Source: Antarctobacter heliothermus (GTDB lineage Bacteria; Pseudomonadota; Alphaproteobacteria; Rhodobacterales; Rhodobacteraceae). From it: 64,000 nt of DNA. Position 1 is the stretch's first letter; each line of letters opens with the position of its first letter. Made by a program: the position numbers and the translations under genes. This document shows positions 6,983 through 51,578 of this stretch, piece by piece. The notes under the pieces are model-generated. The model made no database searches. It saw nothing but the letters and a program-made list of their open reading frames with translations, and was not told the DNA's origin. Location of the stretch: NCBI RefSeq assembly GCF_002237555.1, contig NZ_CP022540.1, positions 1,116,001 to 1,180,000 on the forward strand. The letters run 5' to 3'.

Positions 6983-9154
6983 ATGCTGAGCCAATTGACC
7001 AGCCTGTTGGGCCTGACCCCCGCGTCACGGGGCCCGAACACCCAGACAGGCGAAGAACCGACAATCGATTTTGCGAGCGTTTTTGCCCGCGCTGAGGATG
7101 AGCAGCCGTCTTGGCACCTCGATCCGGATCCAATCGCCGAGAAAGAAGAGGGCGAAGAGGCGGAGGAGGTCCTGTTGTCAGGTGCCGAATCCGACGACGC
7201 GGTGGACGTAGACCACCTAGGGCCCCAGAGCGCGGAGGCGGATGAAGGTGATGTGCCATTGACGTCCGGGTTGGATCGGACCGAAGATTCGGACTGGTTT
7301 GATGAGGACGTTAGATTTCAGGATAAACTCGATCCGCGACTTGGAATGCGCGGTCACGACGCCCTTGTTGCAATACCTTATGCAACGGTCCCGCCGGACA
7401 ATCCTGTACCGACACGCGCTACTCCATCCCGGGTTTCGGTTGATGGTGGTGCGTTCGCGACCGTGCGCCTGAAAGAATCGGTGGACGTGAAAGAGGACGC
7501 TCCGCGGGTCATTTCAGAATCGGATGACATGATTGCGGCGCGTCGGAAAGATAGCGGTTTTGTCCCGGCAGCGACCGCAACCGCTCTTCCCGTTGACCCA
7601 TCAATTGATTTACCCCGCGGACTAACAACAGATCCAGCGATTCACGCAAAACAGGCCGCCGACCTCTCCAAACAGCCGAATCCGACTGACCCAGCTTTGA
7701 ATTCAAGGGCGCCGTTGGATATCGGCGAAGATGTAAGGAAAGTCACACGGGTTCCGCGCGGGGCGCCGGTTCAGCGAGAGTTGCCGGTCTTTCGGCTTGA
7801 TATGTCTGCCGCCGACCGATTTCCGCAACAGTTTTCCCGCACCGACGCGCCGCTGACCGCTCCGCAGAGGAGTACTGCACTCCCAATCGACGGTCTTGTT
7901 GGACAGCGCGCTATGGAGAGCGTTGCGTCTGGTTCGCCAGCGTCGACGGATGGTCTCATCGACTTGGACGCGCCGATTTCACAAGGCGAAACTCCTGATG
8001 AAACGGCACCAAACCCACCTGCAGACACAACACCACGGGTCGCGAAGGCGGGACCGGGTCCGATTTTTGAGCGGCAGGCCGGATCGTTTCAATTGTCTCC
8101 GGACCGCGGCCGCACTGTCCCAGTGACGACCACCGTGAAAGATCCACAATCCGCATTCCCTCGTGACGCAATCGAAACGCGGCGGGCGCGTGCAGGAACT
8201 ATCGTCGTGCCGACAACGGTTGCACCGGCACCTGCGATAAAGGTAGCGCCGCCGTCAGACTTGGGCGTGCTGATTGCGCCAGAGTTCATCCAACCCACAA
8301 GTGAGGGTGTAGATTCGCTCGAGGTAGTTGAAAAATCAGTGGTCGCTGCGGCCAAGATCCCCCAAGCTGCTGCCGAAAACTTCGTTTCCGGGTCACTGTC
8401 GAAACCTGGGGCGATGATCAGTTCGGACATAAACGAAAAGGTGAGCGTTTCGATTGCAGACCATCAATCCGCGAAAACGCGAATTGATGACCGCCATTTT
8501 CGCTTCGCCAAATCAGCAGGTGAGGACGGGATCGCCATCGACCGAGCGCATCAGACGCCGTCGACTGATCGGAAAGATTTCCACGCTGGCCCGGTTGGCT
8601 TACCAGCCCTTGGCAAACCCGGTCTGGGTGATGCCCGCGTGACATCCCCGATGTTGGCTGACTTTCTGGATGAGTCGTTGTCGGCCGAGTTGCGGGGGAC
8701 CGGGGCCGCAGCCGACCTGCGAACCCCAAGCGTACAGCTGCCACCGACGACATCCATCTCAAATCGCGCTGATGCAATGGCGACAGTGCGACAGGTGGCA
8801 GAAGGCATGGCACGGCTTTCAGAGGGCAGCGTCGAAATTCGGCTATCACCCGAAGAGCTGGGGCAAGTGCGTATGCAACTGGTGCCCTCTGACACGGGCA
8901 TGACTGTACATGTTTCGGCAGACCGGCCGGAGACTCTGGACCTGTTGCGACGCCATATCGACCAACTCGCGCGTGATCTTGCAGATGCCGGGTACGACGG
9001 GGCGTCTTTTACCTTTTCCGATGGAGGCGAAGGAAGACGTAGCGAGCAGCCGACGCCGGATGGCGACGACGCTCTTGTGGGCCAAGAAGATCAACGCGCA
9101 ATGCGGACCTCGGTGGCGCCAGCCGCACCCGATGGGCTGGACCTTAGATTCTAG
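6983..9154 (+). CDS. fliK: Flagellar hook-length control protein FliK
   Basis: 723 residues from the ATG at 6983, preceded by GGAG at 6974-6977; an upstream ATG at 6929 has no good ribosome-binding site and adds an Arg-rich stretch. The first 550 residues are acidic and Pro/Thr-rich, low in hydrophobic content, as in the ruler part of FliK. The C-terminal region around residues 610-690 is the conserved hook-length domain (EIRLSPEELGQVRMQLVPSD, then VHVSADRPETLDLLRRHIDQL), which switches export specificity from hook to filament. flgD follows after 8 bases, a typical fliK-flgD pair. Confidence 0.93.
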   Translation: MLSQLTSLLGLTPASRGPNTQTGEEPTIDFASVFARAEDEQPSWHLDPDPIAEKEEGEEAEEVLLSGAESDDAVDVDHLGPQSAEADEGDVPLTSGLDRTEDSDWFDEDVRFQDKLDPRLGMRGHDALVAIPYATVPPDNPVPTRATPSRVSVDGGAFATVRLKESVDVKEDAPRVISESDDMIAARRKDSGFVPAATATALPVDPSIDLPRGLTTDPAIHAKQAADLSKQPNPTDPALNSRAPLDIGEDVRKVTRVPRGAPVQRELPVFRLDMSAADRFPQQFSRTDAPLTAPQRSTALPIDGLVGQRAMESVASGSPASTDGLIDLDAPISQGETPDETAPNPPADTTPRVAKAGPGPIFERQAGSFQLSPDRGRTVPVTTTVKDPQSAFPRDAIETRRARAGTIVVPTTVAPAPAIKVAPPSDLGVLIAPEFIQPTSEGVDSLEVVEKSVVAAAKIPQAAAENFVSGSLSKPGAMISSDINEKVSVSIADHQSAKTRIDDRHFRFAKSAGEDGIAIDRAHQTPSTDRKDFHAGPVGLPALGKPGLGDARVTSPMLADFLDESLSAELRGTGAAADLRTPSVQLPPTTSISNRADAMATVRQVAEGMARLSEGSVEIRLSPEELGQVRMQLVPSDTGMTVHVSADRPETLDLLRRHIDQLARDLADAGYDGASFTFSDGGEGRRSEQPTPDGDDALVGQEDQRAMRTSVAPAAPDGLDLRF

Positions 9155-40385: not shown

Positions 40386-40844
40386 TTATGGCTTGATGTA
40401 GGTATAGCCTTCTTGCTGCAGCTTCGACAGCTCGGCCACGCCCGACGGCACGATATCATCTTCCCACACGTCGTAGAGGTCGTCGGAGTAGTTGATATTG
40501 CGTCCGGTGAGGGTGTTGTTGCAGACGTGAAATTTTACGTTCTGAGATTTCAACCCGCCGATGACTGTCTGTAGACCGTCGTCTGCCATAGCCGATTGCA
40601 GCATGCTGATGCCGTTACCGTGCAGCACAACCTTGATATCCATGTTCTCGACGCCGACGGCATTGATGTGGTTCTGAATGTTGCGCATGGCGCCGCGATA
40701 GGCTTTGGAGTTCTCCCCACCAAGATAATTGATGTGATAGACGACTTTCTGTTTGCCATACCCTTCGGCAAACGACGGGTTCGGTGTCGCAAAAAACGCG
40801 ATGGCAAGCCCGATGATGGCAGCAAGGCGGATGAAGTGAGTCAT
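40386..40844 (-). CDS. Exported DsrE/DsrF-family protein
   Basis: 152 residues from the ATG at 40844, preceded by GGAGGAGACC; an upstream in-frame start lacks a signal peptide ahead of MTHFIRLAAIIGLAIAFFA. The signal peptide ends at SFA, and the mature protein starts EGYGKQKVVYHINYLGGENS. The DsrE-like fold shows ALxxIxNHI, KVVLHGNGISML and the conserved Cys108 in VKFHVCNNTL, the cysteine that carries sulfane sulfur in the cytoplasmic DsrE/TusD relatives. Here it acts in the periplasm. It follows the PhnD-LuxR gene after 128 bases, with a possible hairpin in between. No other Dsr or Sox gene is in the window. Confidence 0.8.
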   Translation of the reverse strand: MTHFIRLAAIIGLAIAFFATPNPSFAEGYGKQKVVYHINYLGGENSKAYRGAMRNIQNHINAVGVENMDIKVVLHGNGISMLQSAMADDGLQTVIGGLKSQNVKFHVCNNTLTGRNINYSDDLYDVWEDDIVPSGVAELSKLQQEGYTYIKP

Positions 40845-40931
40845 TGTTCTGGTCTCCTCCCAAAATGGGCGGGCTGACCGTGCCCGCCAAAGACCAGAAT
40901 GCCGCATGGGCACTGCCGCCGCACACCCCGC

Positions 40932-40953
40932 AAAACCCCGTGTTTCATGCGGG
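40932..40953 (-). terminator. Weak hairpin between the LuxR-type regulator and dsrE-like gene
   Basis: On the minus strand, CCAAACCC...GGGTTTT arms flank a short loop (AAACCCGCATGAAACACGG region), followed by TTTTGCGG. Arms of about 6 pairs with a short T tract could be an intrinsic terminator of the regulator gene. The pairing is modest. Confidence 0.35.
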
Positions 40954-40972
40954 TTTGGTCCCCGGGAATACC

Positions 40973-42238
40973 CTAGGTTTCTGGAATTGCCCGCGTTTCC
41001 TGCTGTCCTGCTCGGGCGATAAGCTGGGCGGAACTGCGGGCCTCGAACTTGCGCAGCAGGTTGGCGCGGTGAAACTCGACCGTCTTGGGGCTGATGCCTA
41101 ATTGCGCGGCGATTTCCTTTGTCGATTTGCCTGCGCCGATCTGCGCCAGCACCTGCGTCTCTCGCCGGGTCAGCGAAACGGTGTCCTGATCCCTTGTTGG
41201 CTTGGCTGCCCGGGTCGGGCCGCCGCGCCGCGCCCGTATAACGACCAGGCCACCTGCAAGACCAAGCACACCAACAGCGCCGACAAACAGCCAGAGCACA
41301 AACGCGGTGCCGGGGTTGCCGACATCCGTTGCGGGTGACGACCAGCCCGCAAAGGCAGCGACCAGTGCATGCGCGTCATGGTAGCTGACCGGCGCGCCCC
41401 AGGGGTCTGGCAGACCACGATCCGTGCTTTGCAACAGGGCCAGCGCCACCGCGTCGCGCATTGCAGCATCGGTTCCAGCCAGCGCCAGAAATGGCCATTC
41501 CGGGTAAAGGCGTGTGCTGACCGCCTCAGGGTGGGTGTAGGTGACATTGGCATTGAGCGCGCGAAGGCTATCGCTGGGCACAGTGCCTTCGATTACCAAC
41601 CGTTCCAGCAGGCCACTGCGTACAATGCCTGCGTCCAGTTTGCCCGACAGAACGTCCGCGACAATCGCGTCCTGCGGAAAGCCGTAAAAGACAAGGTCGG
41701 CGGGATCGTCGAAAAGATCGACACCCTGGGCGCGTGCCTCGAACCAAGTCATTTGGAACCCGCCAAAGGCCTGCGGAGCCACCGCCCCGACCCGCGCGCC
41801 GCGCAGATCGGCAAAGGTGGTCAATTGGCTGTCCGTCCGCACCAGCACCGCCGAGCCGAATTGCAGGGTATGTGCGCCATCCGCCAGAGAACGCTTACGC
41901 GTGGCCAGCACGCTCATCGGATACTGCCCGGCTAGGTCGATGTAGTGGCCGGGGTTGGTTATGAGAAAGTCCAGCCCGCCCGCATTGATCAACGGCCCGG
42001 CAGAGGTCAGCGTAACCGGGACAAACCGCACCACATGGGCGGGCAGGGCCTCTTGCAGATAGGTGGCAAGCAGGGACCACTGCGACTCTCTGGCGTTCCA
42101 GCCGCGATGCGCCAGAACCCCGACGCGGACGATTGGACGTTCGATGTCCTGCGCGCGCGAGGGGACGGCGCACAGGCACGACAGCAGGAGGCACAGCAGT
42201 AGTGCGCGCGCGCCGCCTAAACCATCGGCACGGATCAT
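40973..42238 (-). CDS. Membrane-spanning one-component regulator: PhnD/TtrS-like periplasmic sensor fused to a LuxR helix-turn-helix
   Basis: 421 residues from the ATG at 42238. Residues 10-30 are a signal sequence (LLLCLLLSCLCAVPSRAQ). Residues 36-275 form a PhnD/SsuA-type periplasmic binding domain of the kind found in the tetrathionate sensor TtrS, with VGVLAHRGW, FLITNPGHYIDL and YPEWPFLALAGT. Residues 312-334 are a single membrane helix (FVLWLFVGAVGVLGLAGGLV) followed by positive RARRGG. Residues 355-411 are a complete LuxR helix-turn-helix (LTRRETQVLAQIGAGKSTKE, then AQLGISPKTVEFHRANLLRK). There is no kinase or receiver domain. Ligand binding outside would directly change DNA binding inside; this is inferred from domain order. 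It lies between a MORN gene and an exported DsrE gene. Confidence 0.85.
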   Translation of the reverse strand: MIRADGLGGARALLLCLLLSCLCAVPSRAQDIERPIVRVGVLAHRGWNARESQWSLLATYLQEALPAHVVRFVPVTLTSAGPLINAGGLDFLITNPGHYIDLAGQYPMSVLATRKRSLADGAHTLQFGSAVLVRTDSQLTTFADLRGARVGAVAPQAFGGFQMTWFEARAQGVDLFDDPADLVFYGFPQDAIVADVLSGKLDAGIVRSGLLERLVIEGTVPSDSLRALNANVTYTHPEAVSTRLYPEWPFLALAGTDAAMRDAVALALLQSTDRGLPDPWGAPVSYHDAHALVAAFAGWSSPATDVGNPGTAFVLWLFVGAVGVLGLAGGLVVIRARRGGPTRAAKPTRDQDTVSLTRRETQVLAQIGAGKSTKEIAAQLGISPKTVEFHRANLLRKFEARSSAQLIARAGQQETRAIPET

Positions 42239-42279
42239 CCGCCAATAATACGATGTGTCGTCGCGGTTGGCGCGGCCGT

Positions 42280-43737
42280 TCAATTGTCCGCCGGTGCGGG
42301 GACAGGGGCGGGATCTGGCGCGGCTTGTGGTTCAGGTGCGGGGGTCGCCGGAACGGCGCGTAGGGCGCCGCCGACCCAATCGCCTGACGCCTCTTCGCCG
42401 GTGGCGTATTTCATCGTGCCCTGACCTTGGCGTTTGCCGTCTTTGAACGTGCCCTGATAAATGTCGCCGTTGGCATAAACGGCGATGCCCTCGCCGTTGA
42501 TTTCACCGCGCACCCATGTGCCCTCGTAGCGAAAGCCAGAGGCCATTTCGATAACGCCTTTGCCGTGGCGCTGGCCCTCACGGAACTGGCCATCGTAGAC
42601 GGTGCCGTCGGGATAGGTCGCCTTGCCCTCGCCATGACGTTGGCCGTTCTGCCAATTGCCCTCATAGCGGTAGCCGTCGGGGTACGTCATGACGCCAAAC
42701 CCGTCATTGCGGGCATTCTCAAAGCTGCCCTCATAGACCAGCCCGTTGGGATAGGTCGCACGGCCCTTGCCCTGAATCACGCCGTTGACCCACTCGCCGG
42801 AATAGGTTGCGCCATCGGGATAGGTGATCGTGCCAATGCCATTGGCAAGGTCGCCCTTGAACTGGCCTTCGTAGACAGAACCGTCGGGATAAGTGACCTT
42901 GCCCTTGCCCTCGATCTGGCCGGTGATCCAGTTGCCATCGTAGCGATAGCCGTCCTTGCCGACAAAGCTGCCGGTGCCGTGGCGCTGGTCATTGTTGAAC
43001 TGGCCTTCGTAGACATCGCCGTTCTCGTAGATGACCTTGCCCTTGCCCTCACGCCGACCATCGACAAGCTGACCCTCGTAGACGTCACCATTGGGCTGGA
43101 TCAGCTTGCCTTCGCCGTCGATCTGCCCTTCACGCCATGTGCCTTCGTAGATCAGGCCATCGGGCATCGTCAGCTTGCCAAAGCCGTCGCGTTCGCCATC
43201 GGCGACGCGGCCATCGTAGATCGACTTGTCGGGGTAGGTGACTTTGGCAACGCCTTCCTTGACGCCGTTCACCCATTGGCCGTCATAGACGTAACCGTTT
43301 GGCGCGGTCATCACGCCGCGTCCGTGGTGCAGCGCGTTGCGGAACGATCCCTCATAGCGGACGCCATTGGCGTAGACGGCGATGCCGGTGCCGGTGATCT
43401 TGCCGTCCAGCCATTGGCCCTCATATGTGCCGCCGTCGGCAAAGACGATCTTGCCGACGCCTTCGGGTTTGCCCTTGGCGAAATCGCCGTCATAGACTGA
43501 CCCGTTGGGAAAACGCGCGACGCCCTTGCCCTTGATCTCACCATCGACCCAGTCGCCGGTATATTCATACCCGTTGGGCAGGCGGTAAGTGCCGGTGCCG
43601 TGCTGCATCCCGTTGAGGAAGGTGCCCTCATAGACGCCGCCGTCATCGTATTGTTTGGTGACCACCTGGTCATCCTGCGCCAAGGCGAAACCCGCCAGCG
43701 AAATTGCCAGAATGCCGGTGATGCCTGCAAGTTTCAT
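42280..43737 (-). CDS. Exported MORN-repeat protein with 18 full repeats
   Basis: 485 residues from the ATG at 43737; the signal peptide is MKLAGITGILAISLAGFALA with cleavage before QDDQ, and a longer in-frame start lacks any family similarity. The mature chain is 18 consecutive 23-residue MORN repeats (pattern GxxYEGxWxxGxxxGxGxxxYPN) with a nineteenth degenerate one, then a 30-residue Pro/Ala tail. Repeats alternate between W and F/V/L at the sixth position after the tyrosine, giving a 46-residue super-period with one phase slip at repeat 10. MORN repeats form beta-hairpin ladders that bind lipids or proteins. It is 41 bases upstream of the regulator gene on the same strand. Confidence 0.9.
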   Translation of the reverse strand: MKLAGITGILAISLAGFALAQDDQVVTKQYDDGGVYEGTFLNGMQHGTGTYRLPNGYEYTGDWVDGEIKGKGVARFPNGSVYDGDFAKGKPEGVGKIVFADGGTYEGQWLDGKITGTGIAVYANGVRYEGSFRNALHHGRGVMTAPNGYVYDGQWVNGVKEGVAKVTYPDKSIYDGRVADGERDGFGKLTMPDGLIYEGTWREGQIDGEGKLIQPNGDVYEGQLVDGRREGKGKVIYENGDVYEGQFNNDQRHGTGSFVGKDGYRYDGNWITGQIEGKGKVTYPDGSVYEGQFKGDLANGIGTITYPDGATYSGEWVNGVIQGKGRATYPNGLVYEGSFENARNDGFGVMTYPDGYRYEGNWQNGQRHGEGKATYPDGTVYDGQFREGQRHGKGVIEMASGFRYEGTWVRGEINGEGIAVYANGDIYQGTFKDGKRQGQGTMKYATGEEASGDWVGGALRAVPATPAPEPQAAPDPAPVPAPADN

Positions 43738-43873
43738 ACGCGCTGCCCTGTGGTGTCGGAGTTGGCTCCAAAATTGGGAAAAACCTAATGGAGGGACCGG
43801 GCAGGGGCAATGGCTTTCGAAAACGGGCCGCGATGGGGTACCTTTGCACGGCGTCCGACATCGGTGCCGCAGC

Positions 43874-44368
43874 CTATTGCGCGGGTCCCAGATAGGTGGA
43901 GTTTTCCCACATCCCCTCATGGACGGTGCCATCGGTTTTGATCAATCGGCCCTTGCCGGTCACCGCGCCGTCCACAAATTGGCCGAAATAGCGCGTGCCG
44001 TCCGAATAGAGCAGTGCGCCTTCGCCGTGCCGTTTGTCATCCTTGTATTGCCCTTCGTAGTAGTCTCCGTTGAGATGCCAAGCCTTTCCAGAGCCGTGCC
44101 TATAGCCGTTCACGAATTGGCCTTCGTATGTCTTGAAGCCTTGCCCATCGACAATGCGACCATGACCTGTGAGTTCGCCGTTCACGAAGCCTCCGACATA
44201 GCTGCCGCCGCCGGGCAGGTGCATCGTGCCGACGCCGTGCGGTTTCCCCAATACCATGGGTCCATCGTAGCGCGCGCCATTGGAATAGGTTTTTGTGTCC
44301 GCCATGGCCGACCCTGAAAAGGACAGCAGGATCGCAGTGACGAGGGCGGCGGGCAGGGTAGGGCGCAT
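43874..44368 (-). CDS. Short exported MORN-repeat protein
   Basis: 164 residues. A signal peptide (MRPTLPAALVTAILLSFSGS, then AMA) is followed by about six MORN repeats, for example NGARYDGPMVLGKPHGVGTM and GDYYEGQYKDDKRHGEGALL, ending near the C-terminus without a tail. It is divergent from nadE with 149 bases between starts and 136 bases upstream of the long MORN gene on the same strand, so the two may be co-transcribed. Confidence 0.85.
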   Translation of the reverse strand: MRPTLPAALVTAILLSFSGSAMADTKTYSNGARYDGPMVLGKPHGVGTMHLPGGGSYVGGFVNGELTGHGRIVDGQGFKTYEGQFVNGYRHGSGKAWHLNGDYYEGQYKDDKRHGEGALLYSDGTRYFGQFVDGAVTGKGRLIKTDGTVHEGMWENSTYLGPAQ

Positions 44369-51397: not shown

Positions 51398-51413
51398 CGT
51401 CGCGGCAACTTCG

Positions 51414-51578
51414 ACGGGAGAACCGGTGCGGCCTTGGCCAAACCCGGTGCCGAAGGCGCAACCGCCCCGGAAACGCTCAGGCCCAATGGACCGCGAAGGA
51501 ACGACACTCTGGAGAGAGGCGCAGTATGGGCGTCCGCCGAAGGGATAGCGATCTCAGGCCAAGGGACAGAGGGGGCAG
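51414..51578 (+). ncRNA. Tandem glycine riboswitch upstream of gcvT
   Basis: Two aptamer-like copies follow each other. Aptamer 1 has GTGCCGAAGGCGCAA, GGAAACGCTCAGGCCCAATG and ends near ACTCTGGAGAG. Aptamer 2 has GCCGAAGGGATAGC, ATCTCAGGCCAAGGGACAGA and GGGGG. These match the GAAGG...CTCAGG...GGACAGAG core of the glycine riboswitch, which switches on gcv genes when glycine is plentiful. It lies 67 bases before the gcvT start, with a potential expression-platform hairpin in GGTACGGAAC...GTGCCGGTAC between. Ends are approximate. Confidence 0.88.

Follow-up and report, generated by a model that had tools for sequence, protein, structure and literature searches.

What is the functional unit in a row of four minus-strand genes, and what might that unit sense? 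The question is raised by a stretch of 64,000 nucleotides from Antarctobacter heliothermus (hereafter the window, 1116001-1180000 of contig 1 in a genome of 5.33 Mb), in which two genes for proteins with MORN repeats (MORN1 and MORN2), a gene for a regulator combining a PhnD-type domain with a LuxR-type DNA-binding domain, and a gene for a DsrE-family protein follow one another. A reading made from the letters alone, hereafter the sequence-only reading, had proposed that all four form one envelope system under a periplasmic ligand, possibly a sulfur oxyanion. The functional unit is two genes, those of the regulator and of DsrE, plus the palindrome at their junction, a likely operator; it is not the set of four. 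Regarding its function, it is probable (about 0.7) that the predicted membrane regulator recognizes a periplasmic sulfur oxyanion, tetrathionate or a relative of it, and through this palindrome then activates the gene of a DsrE protein predicted to be exported.

The Regulator and DsrE as a Two-Gene Unit

The regulator gene (40973-42238, minus strand) encodes 421 amino acids counted from an ATG, a longer TTG start being possible. The product, a predicted membrane protein, harbors a TtrS-like sensor domain predicted to be periplasmic (residues 33-303; 41330-42142, minus strand), a predicted transmembrane helix, which is helical in the structure model (residues 309-336; 41231-41314, minus strand), and a LuxR-type helix-turn-helix (HTH; residues 355-410; 41009-41176, minus strand). 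Pfam assigns to it Phosphonate-bd (PF12974, 108.2 bits) and GerE/LuxR (PF00196, 73.8 bits); no kinase domain (HisKA, HATPase_c) was found in the Pfam scan, and the chain ends in the LuxR HTH. With a sensor, a predicted membrane helix and a DNA-binding domain but no receiver, this architecture fits a membrane-integrated one-component regulator. The TtrS model NF040750 scores 168.1 bits over residues 38-294 of the sensor, its whole-protein cut-off of 750 not being reached, against 35 bits for the phosphonate/phosphite subfamily. Seven sensor residues (T94, N95, P96, H98, R207, E247, and W248) are common to 17-19 of 19 TtrS-like receptors, the function of these receptors being itself predicted, and the recognition helix SPKTVEFHR is invariant in 31/31 aligned rows.

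The DsrE gene (40386-40844, minus strand), the putative target of the regulator, encodes 152 amino acids counted from an ATG, with a longer GTG start possible, and its product has a start that resembles a signal peptide by reading. Membership of the DsrE/DsrF family is indicated both by the fold and by a PF02635 score of 47.8 bits, above the gathering cut-off of 22.7. While C108, N110, and T111 are invariant in all 27 DsrE rows, C108 (codon at 40521-40523, minus strand) is the only invariant cysteine and would be the reactive one. The protein stands alone in the window, with no F/H partners beside it. The sequence-only reading was right in pairing a TtrS-like PhnD-type domain with a DsrE protein that has a signal-like start, and its link to sulfur metabolism is borne out, beyond the type of the sensor, by gene neighbors and co-occurrence. 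DsrE genes lie beside sox genes in 3/17 loci, in L083 the regulator gene is flanked by the genes of a flavocytochrome-c sulfide dehydrogenase and of SoxB, and SoxB is present in 25/27 genomes with DsrE versus 247/394 genomes of the family overall (p = 3e-4, kinship uncorrected).

Relatives of the regulator are encoded at 227 places in a scan of one genome per species (84,980 species), a scan from which the closest records to the genome of the window may be missing. The best 80 of these 227 matches formed the locus sample, in which 49 regulators are full-length (L037-L084 and L106); one contig underlies both L060 and L061, and L061 was dropped, so that 48 other loci and the window make up the 49 counted here. 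The contig shared by L060 and L061 occurs in two metagenome bins, labeled Flavobacteriia and Roseobacter, and one bin is likely mislabeled. The nearest named relative among the matches is Antarctobacter heliothermus DSM 11445, with a regulator 90% identical, and the genera in the sample include Mameliella, Salipiger, Rhodosalinus, Marimonas, Sulfitobacter, Marivita, Hoeflea, and Oricola, among others. In 43/49 loci a DsrE gene lies directly downstream of the regulator on the same strand; in three (L079, L082, and L083) it follows after one inserted gene for a solute-binding protein, and in three (L062, L069, and L072) none was found near the regulator. The DsrE of L042, L049, and L073 was seen by BLAST only, the copy in L073 being cut by the contig end, and that of L067, L079, L082, and L083 is a more remote relative (aligned identity 25-28%).

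The same association can be found in a survey of 394 genomes of the family, where the regulator was scored on at most four candidates per genome: a regulator with the HTH occurs in 13, a class-I DsrE in 27, and the adjacent pair in 10. The neighborhoods of the pair vary: the window's group has nadE, MORN2 and a photolyase-like gene there, the Marivita group an FtsZ gene, and Oricola a sulfate permease. Among 72,556 plasmid records, no match covered 80% of the regulator; 12 partial sensor matches (Azospirillum, Thioclava) were obtained, as well as DsrE relatives in nine records. In a relative of the same genus (G001), dsrE is split over C137:344-631 (residues 1-96) and C84:171989-172177 (residues 90-152), which suggests an insertion or an assembly break.

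A Shared Palindrome at the Junction

The gaps between regulator and DsrE share an 18-bp palindrome, with a consensus of about CCTAGGGTATACCCTAGG (~19 bits), which in the window reads CCTAGGGTATTCCCGGGG on the minus strand (40960-40977) and whose TAG is the stop codon of the regulator. The palindrome was evaluated in 45 loci, leaving aside L073 (no gap sequence) and L062, L069, and L072 (no class-I DsrE). When the motif was trained only on loci with a regulator less than 60% identical to that of the locus scored, and the score compared with 100 dinucleotide shuffles per locus, 42/45 loci beat at least 95 shuffles and 41/45 at least 99; L045, L067, and L070 failed, L045 having a 21.4-bit site further along its long gap. 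Since the expectation-maximization seed of this leave-clade-out test had been read from the whole set, the test was repeated with blind seeds: these came from random draws within one half of the loci, and the other half was scored at the same threshold. All 17 loci of the window's MORN-bearing group together with L050 passed after training on the rest, and 27/28 passed in the reverse direction, where L067 failed and the learned motif was offset by four bases, with low scores in several cases. In both designs, 0/100 shuffles reach the score of the window site.

Regarding position, the site starts between 25 bases before and ~30 bases after the end of the regulator (45 loci), and its TAG is the stop codon of the regulator in 17/45 loci, that of the window included. 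The best score falls on the downstream dyad in L056, L057, L063, and L065, and on a site 94 bases on in L081. Across 767 kb of regulator loci, most of them having trained the motif, a site above 12 bits lies from 40 bases before to 130 bases after the regulator end in 46/49 loci, and 15 other such sites can be found, 11 of them at one position, which in the window is in the coding sequence of MORN2. In seven genomes out of seven, including that of the window, the sole match to the genus form of the motif at 0-1 mismatches is at the junction, this form having itself been derived from these junctions; at 2-3 mismatches its frequency is similar to that of the control. From the operator centre, which is upstream, to the chosen DsrE start the distance is 110-131 bp in 31/45 loci; for L037, L045, L079, L082, and L083 it was measured to the 150-bp cut instead of to that start. 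The window has another dyad, weaker than the palindrome, 34 bp further downstream (40926-40943). When L045, L067, and L070 are also set aside, as was done for this count and for that of RNA pairing, the best second site is 33-35 bp downstream in 19/42 loci versus 1.6 expected from shuffles (23/45 in an earlier count).

The palindrome follows the regulator and not DsrE. It stays with regulators lacking a class-I DsrE, namely in L062 and L072, where the next gene encodes a solute-binding protein, in L135, which has a distant DsrE, in L134, and weakly in L136; in L069, likewise a regulator without class-I DsrE, no palindrome was found. It was absent within ~300 bases upstream of 17/17 DsrE genes without a regulator (best 7.2 bits). 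Upstream of the regulator none was found in the seven loci scanned (best 7.1 bits, L136), for which reason auto-regulation through this site was rejected. Altogether, the palindrome is likely to be the operator through which the regulator controls dsrE, as judged from its sequence and placement.

Relation to ttrSR Loci

One genome of the same family (G008) encodes TtrS, TtrR, TtrB, TtrC, and TtrA at a single locus (L036) according to NCBIfam, all below the curated cut-offs, its TtrR scoring higher with the FixJ model (225 bits) than with that of TtrR (173 bits). In this locus the motif trained on regulator loci only gives one 18.3-bit site (7923-7940), the next best in 19.5 kb being 4.6, and the site spans the stop codon of ttrR and precedes ttrB. 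The best score in the 48 other loci without a full-length regulator (~750 kb) is 15.9. Like the regulator of the window, the TtrR proteins of L036, L160, and L163 end in -ET-stop with the TAG inside a palindrome. In Azospirillum, sites of 11.1 and 9.4 bits (L170 and L167) can be found upstream of a ttrB-type gene annotated as dsrO, the TtrA of L170 being assigned by NCBIfam, and on a Thioclava plasmid (L169, 4592-6783) a 13.0-bit site precedes a cytochrome gene whose product has a SoxA/TsdA-type domain, genes for a TtrS-like kinase and a response regulator being adjacent.

The regulator may thus derive from a ttrSR pair, with the kinase and receiver lost, the sensor and operator kept, and the output changed from ttrBCA to dsrE. 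The simplest origin would be an in-frame loss between adjacent ttrS and ttrR, which we infer because the sensors are similar and the operator sits at the same stop codon, and not from the HTH tree. On balance, though with some reserve, we favor a history in which a two-component tetrathionate receptor was reduced to one membrane-bound chain that retained the sensor and the operator at its own 3' end, and whose output moved from tetrathionate respiration to an exported sulfur carrier. This sulfur-oxyanion one-component switch would have spread as a two-gene cassette across Alphaproteobacteria, with sister forms driving a periplasmic binding protein.

Similar palindromes were also seen in other settings. 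A second form of fusion is a protein of 627 residues (L159, 1289-3172), in which a sensor like that of the regulator is joined through a long middle part to what, by reading, is a LuxR head at the C-terminus; downstream of its gene come a 15.8-bit site and then a gene for a solute-binding protein. Beside response regulators with the helix ISPKTVEFHR (L103-L115), mostly from related Betaproteobacteria, a site lies ~480 bp downstream in 8/12 loci examined, and in L110 such a palindrome lies upstream of a menD-type gene; a recognition-code rule joining the shared helix and the palindrome is possible. In Desulfosporosinus (L112, 5645-12686), a HAMP-type kinase and a response regulator are followed, 6 bp after the stop of the latter, by an operator-like site and by TtrB-like, NrfD-like, and molybdopterin oxidoreductase genes.

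Proposed Mechanism and Alternatives

TtrS from Salmonella is thought to bind tetrathionate via its PhnD-like domain, while ThsSR from Shewanella responds to thiosulfate (PMC5408782). A DsrE protein from Metallosphaera (DsrE3A) forms a Cys-S-thiosulfonate with tetrathionate and shows no reaction with thiosulfate (PMC4175335). It is from these ligands and this chemistry that a mechanism can be proposed. By analogy, tetrathionate (or thiosulfate) would bind the sensor in the periplasm, the signal would cross the one predicted membrane helix, and the LuxR heads would bind the paired palindromes and activate dsrE. The exported DsrE would then take a sulfane sulfur or a thiosulfonate group on Cys108, alongside thiosulfate oxidation by Sox.

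Short gaps separate the four consecutive genes, and a MORN2 homologue lies upstream of the regulator in 16/49 loci, all in the window's part of Rhodobacterales; both would suit a single envelope system with the MORN proteins as well as DsrE under the regulator. Such a system is nevertheless highly improbable. MORN2 is a core gene of the family, present in 368/394 genomes (E <= 1e-100) as against 13 with the regulator, it adjoins nadE in 15/15 sampled loci without the regulator, and it was not found in 33/49 regulator loci, the flank examined being short in some. Because MORN2 is near-universal and is kept by nadE without the regulator, the MORN genes are not counted in the unit; the lack of operators upstream of the regulator in the loci scanned, and the position of the operator between regulator and DsrE, point the same way, the match within MORN2 being coding sequence. 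The adjacency expected in relatives was retained for the regulator and DsrE but not for the MORN genes. That the palindrome acts not as an operator but as RNA, i.e., a terminator or processing hairpin at the 3' end of the regulator, is hardly more credible, even though a 7-bp stem with a 4-base loop could form and a weak terminator-like site is present in the gap (40898-40914). All seven outer pairs are kept in only 6/42 sites, base identity and not pairing being conserved, and on these pairing counts a hairpin or terminator was rejected. Furthermore, no terminator was called at the palindrome, the window having three versus 4.4 expected (the one just mentioned included), and similar palindromes precede ttrB and a cytochrome gene.

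Two further alternatives, which leave the two-gene unit intact, are unlikely but carry more weight. The same switch could respond to phosphite, phosphonate, arsenite, or some other signal, with DsrE as a general thiol protein, since the closest solved folds of the sensor (ArrX, PtxB, PhnD, and AioX) bind arsenic or phosphorus oxyanions. The markedly higher score with the TtrS model, the seven residues shared among receptors of predicted function, and sulfur genes as neighbors or targets in several clades all speak for a sulfur ligand instead. Repression of dsrE by the regulator, whether with ligand or without it, is comparably doubtful: the sign of control is not fixed by sequence and a palindrome fits either role, but the operator lies upstream of the DsrE start, at the distances given above, with a second dyad nearer to it in 19/42 loci. 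Such a layout is more usual for an activator. In addition, ThsSR and TtrSR both act as activators (PMC5408782).

Activation of dsrE by a sulfur oxyanion, through a regulator of ttrSR descent, has to be weighed against several observations besides those nearest folds. Class-I DsrE occurs without the regulator in 17/27 DsrE genomes, and the consensus scan of the window gives no promoter versus 1.9 expected. A search of ten genomes with the consensus, allowing three mismatches at most, found four sites, all four at the junction, and a reversed control pattern gives six; it is for this reason that placement, and not number, is counted as evidence. The palindrome is strong in one (L036), moderate in three (L167, L169, and L170), and wider in three of nine TtrS-type two-component loci, and was not found in the remaining two (L162 and L168). 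The three wider ones (L160, L161, and L163) show it only with two more central bases, as seen by eye, with position weight matrix scores of 2.5-8.5, and ten further loci with TtrS-like receptors (L085-L088, L091, L093, L095, and L164-L166) have nothing above 10.1 bits. For the HTH of the regulator FixJ is the better match at 50.5 bits, TtrR reaching 32.2 bits, and a 58-residue HTH tree does not join it with TtrR; that tree being poorly resolved, the HTH by itself was rejected as proof of descent from TtrR. Finally, TtrA is absent from 12/13 regulator genomes, and respiration of tetrathionate is therefore not the use there and was rejected as such.

The MORN Genes and Other Features of the Window

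MORN1 (43874-44368, minus strand) encodes 164 amino acids and MORN2 (42280-43737, minus strand) 485 counted from the chosen ATG, both with a signal-like N-terminus judged by reading. With the chosen starts, the gaps between the four genes are 136, 41, and 128 bases, and the families named in the sequence-only reading (MORN, PhnD-type, LuxR, and DsrE) agree with Pfam, MORN (PF02493) scoring 341.8 and 61.6 bits for the two MORN proteins. A photolyase-like gene follows within 1.2 kb of MORN2 in 8/15 loci without the regulator, and in six of these eight the gap is 16-207 bases, which leaves no room for the pair. The regulator-DsrE pair would thus have been inserted between two old neighbors in the window's lineage. 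The operator-like match inside MORN2 (43461-43478, 12.9 bits) recurs at the same relative position in ten other loci and most likely reflects codon conservation of the repeat. In the window, no tRNA was found, and the only Rfam matches are two tandem glycine riboswitch aptamers (51404-51503 and 51505-51573).

Comparison With Known Systems

The sensing of extracytoplasmic sulfur compounds by sulfur-oxidizing bacteria is an acknowledged gap (PMC11582611), and no paper on the regulator or on the regulator-DsrE pair was found in the open-licence literature, where a search on MORN likewise yielded no relevant work. The unit supplies a candidate receptor together with its DNA site and a candidate target, which makes the ligand directly testable, and hints at a role for DsrE proteins, here of predicted export, beside Sox. 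If the proposed origin is true, a two-component system has collapsed into a one-component system with its operator kept in place, and one protein with one short DNA site could serve as a compact biosensor part.

Regarding the target, DsrE3A from Metallosphaera cuprina and proteins of the MTH1491/YchN type likewise belong to the DsrE family and have an active-site cysteine, the reactivity of which is presumed by analogy in the protein of the window. DsrE3A has two conserved cysteines (Cys-X7-Cys) and is encoded beside tusA and hdr-like genes (PMC4175335). In the protein of the window, by contrast, a single cysteine is invariant and the N-terminus is signal-like, and no tusA or hdr-like partner was seen beside its gene. 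The DsrEFH/TusBCD relay is cytoplasmic and includes F/H partners, in contrast to the solitary DsrE of the window with its signal-like N-terminus (by reading).

Regarding control, RsrS-RsrR from Acidithiobacillus caldus is an EnvZ-OmpR-like two-component system with tetrathionate as proposed signal, an inverted-repeat operator, and tetH-doxDA as target (PMC5093147). The regulator of the window would share with it the proposed signal and an inverted repeat upstream of a sulfur gene, while being one protein with a different operator and a different target. The system of the window also resembles TtrSR/ttrBCA and ThsSR, which combine a PhnD-type sensor of the TtrS kind and a LuxR-type head with a target just downstream, and, in the TtrSR of L036, the same palindrome at the stop codon of the regulator. 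The use of a palindrome at the 3' end of the regulator as a mark of the TtrSR type is a criterion of the present analysis, and this mark is weaker, wider or missing in the other eight ttrSR-type loci. Unlike TtrSR and ThsSR, the system described here consists of one protein without histidine kinase or receiver, and its putative target is DsrE or a solute-binding protein and not a reductase. In having a sensor, one membrane helix (here predicted) and a DNA-binding head in a single chain, the regulator is comparable to activators of the ToxR/CadC type. ToxR and CadC carry an N-terminal winged helix of the OmpR type; the regulator, unlike them, has a C-terminal LuxR head and an N-terminal sensor with a PhnD fold.

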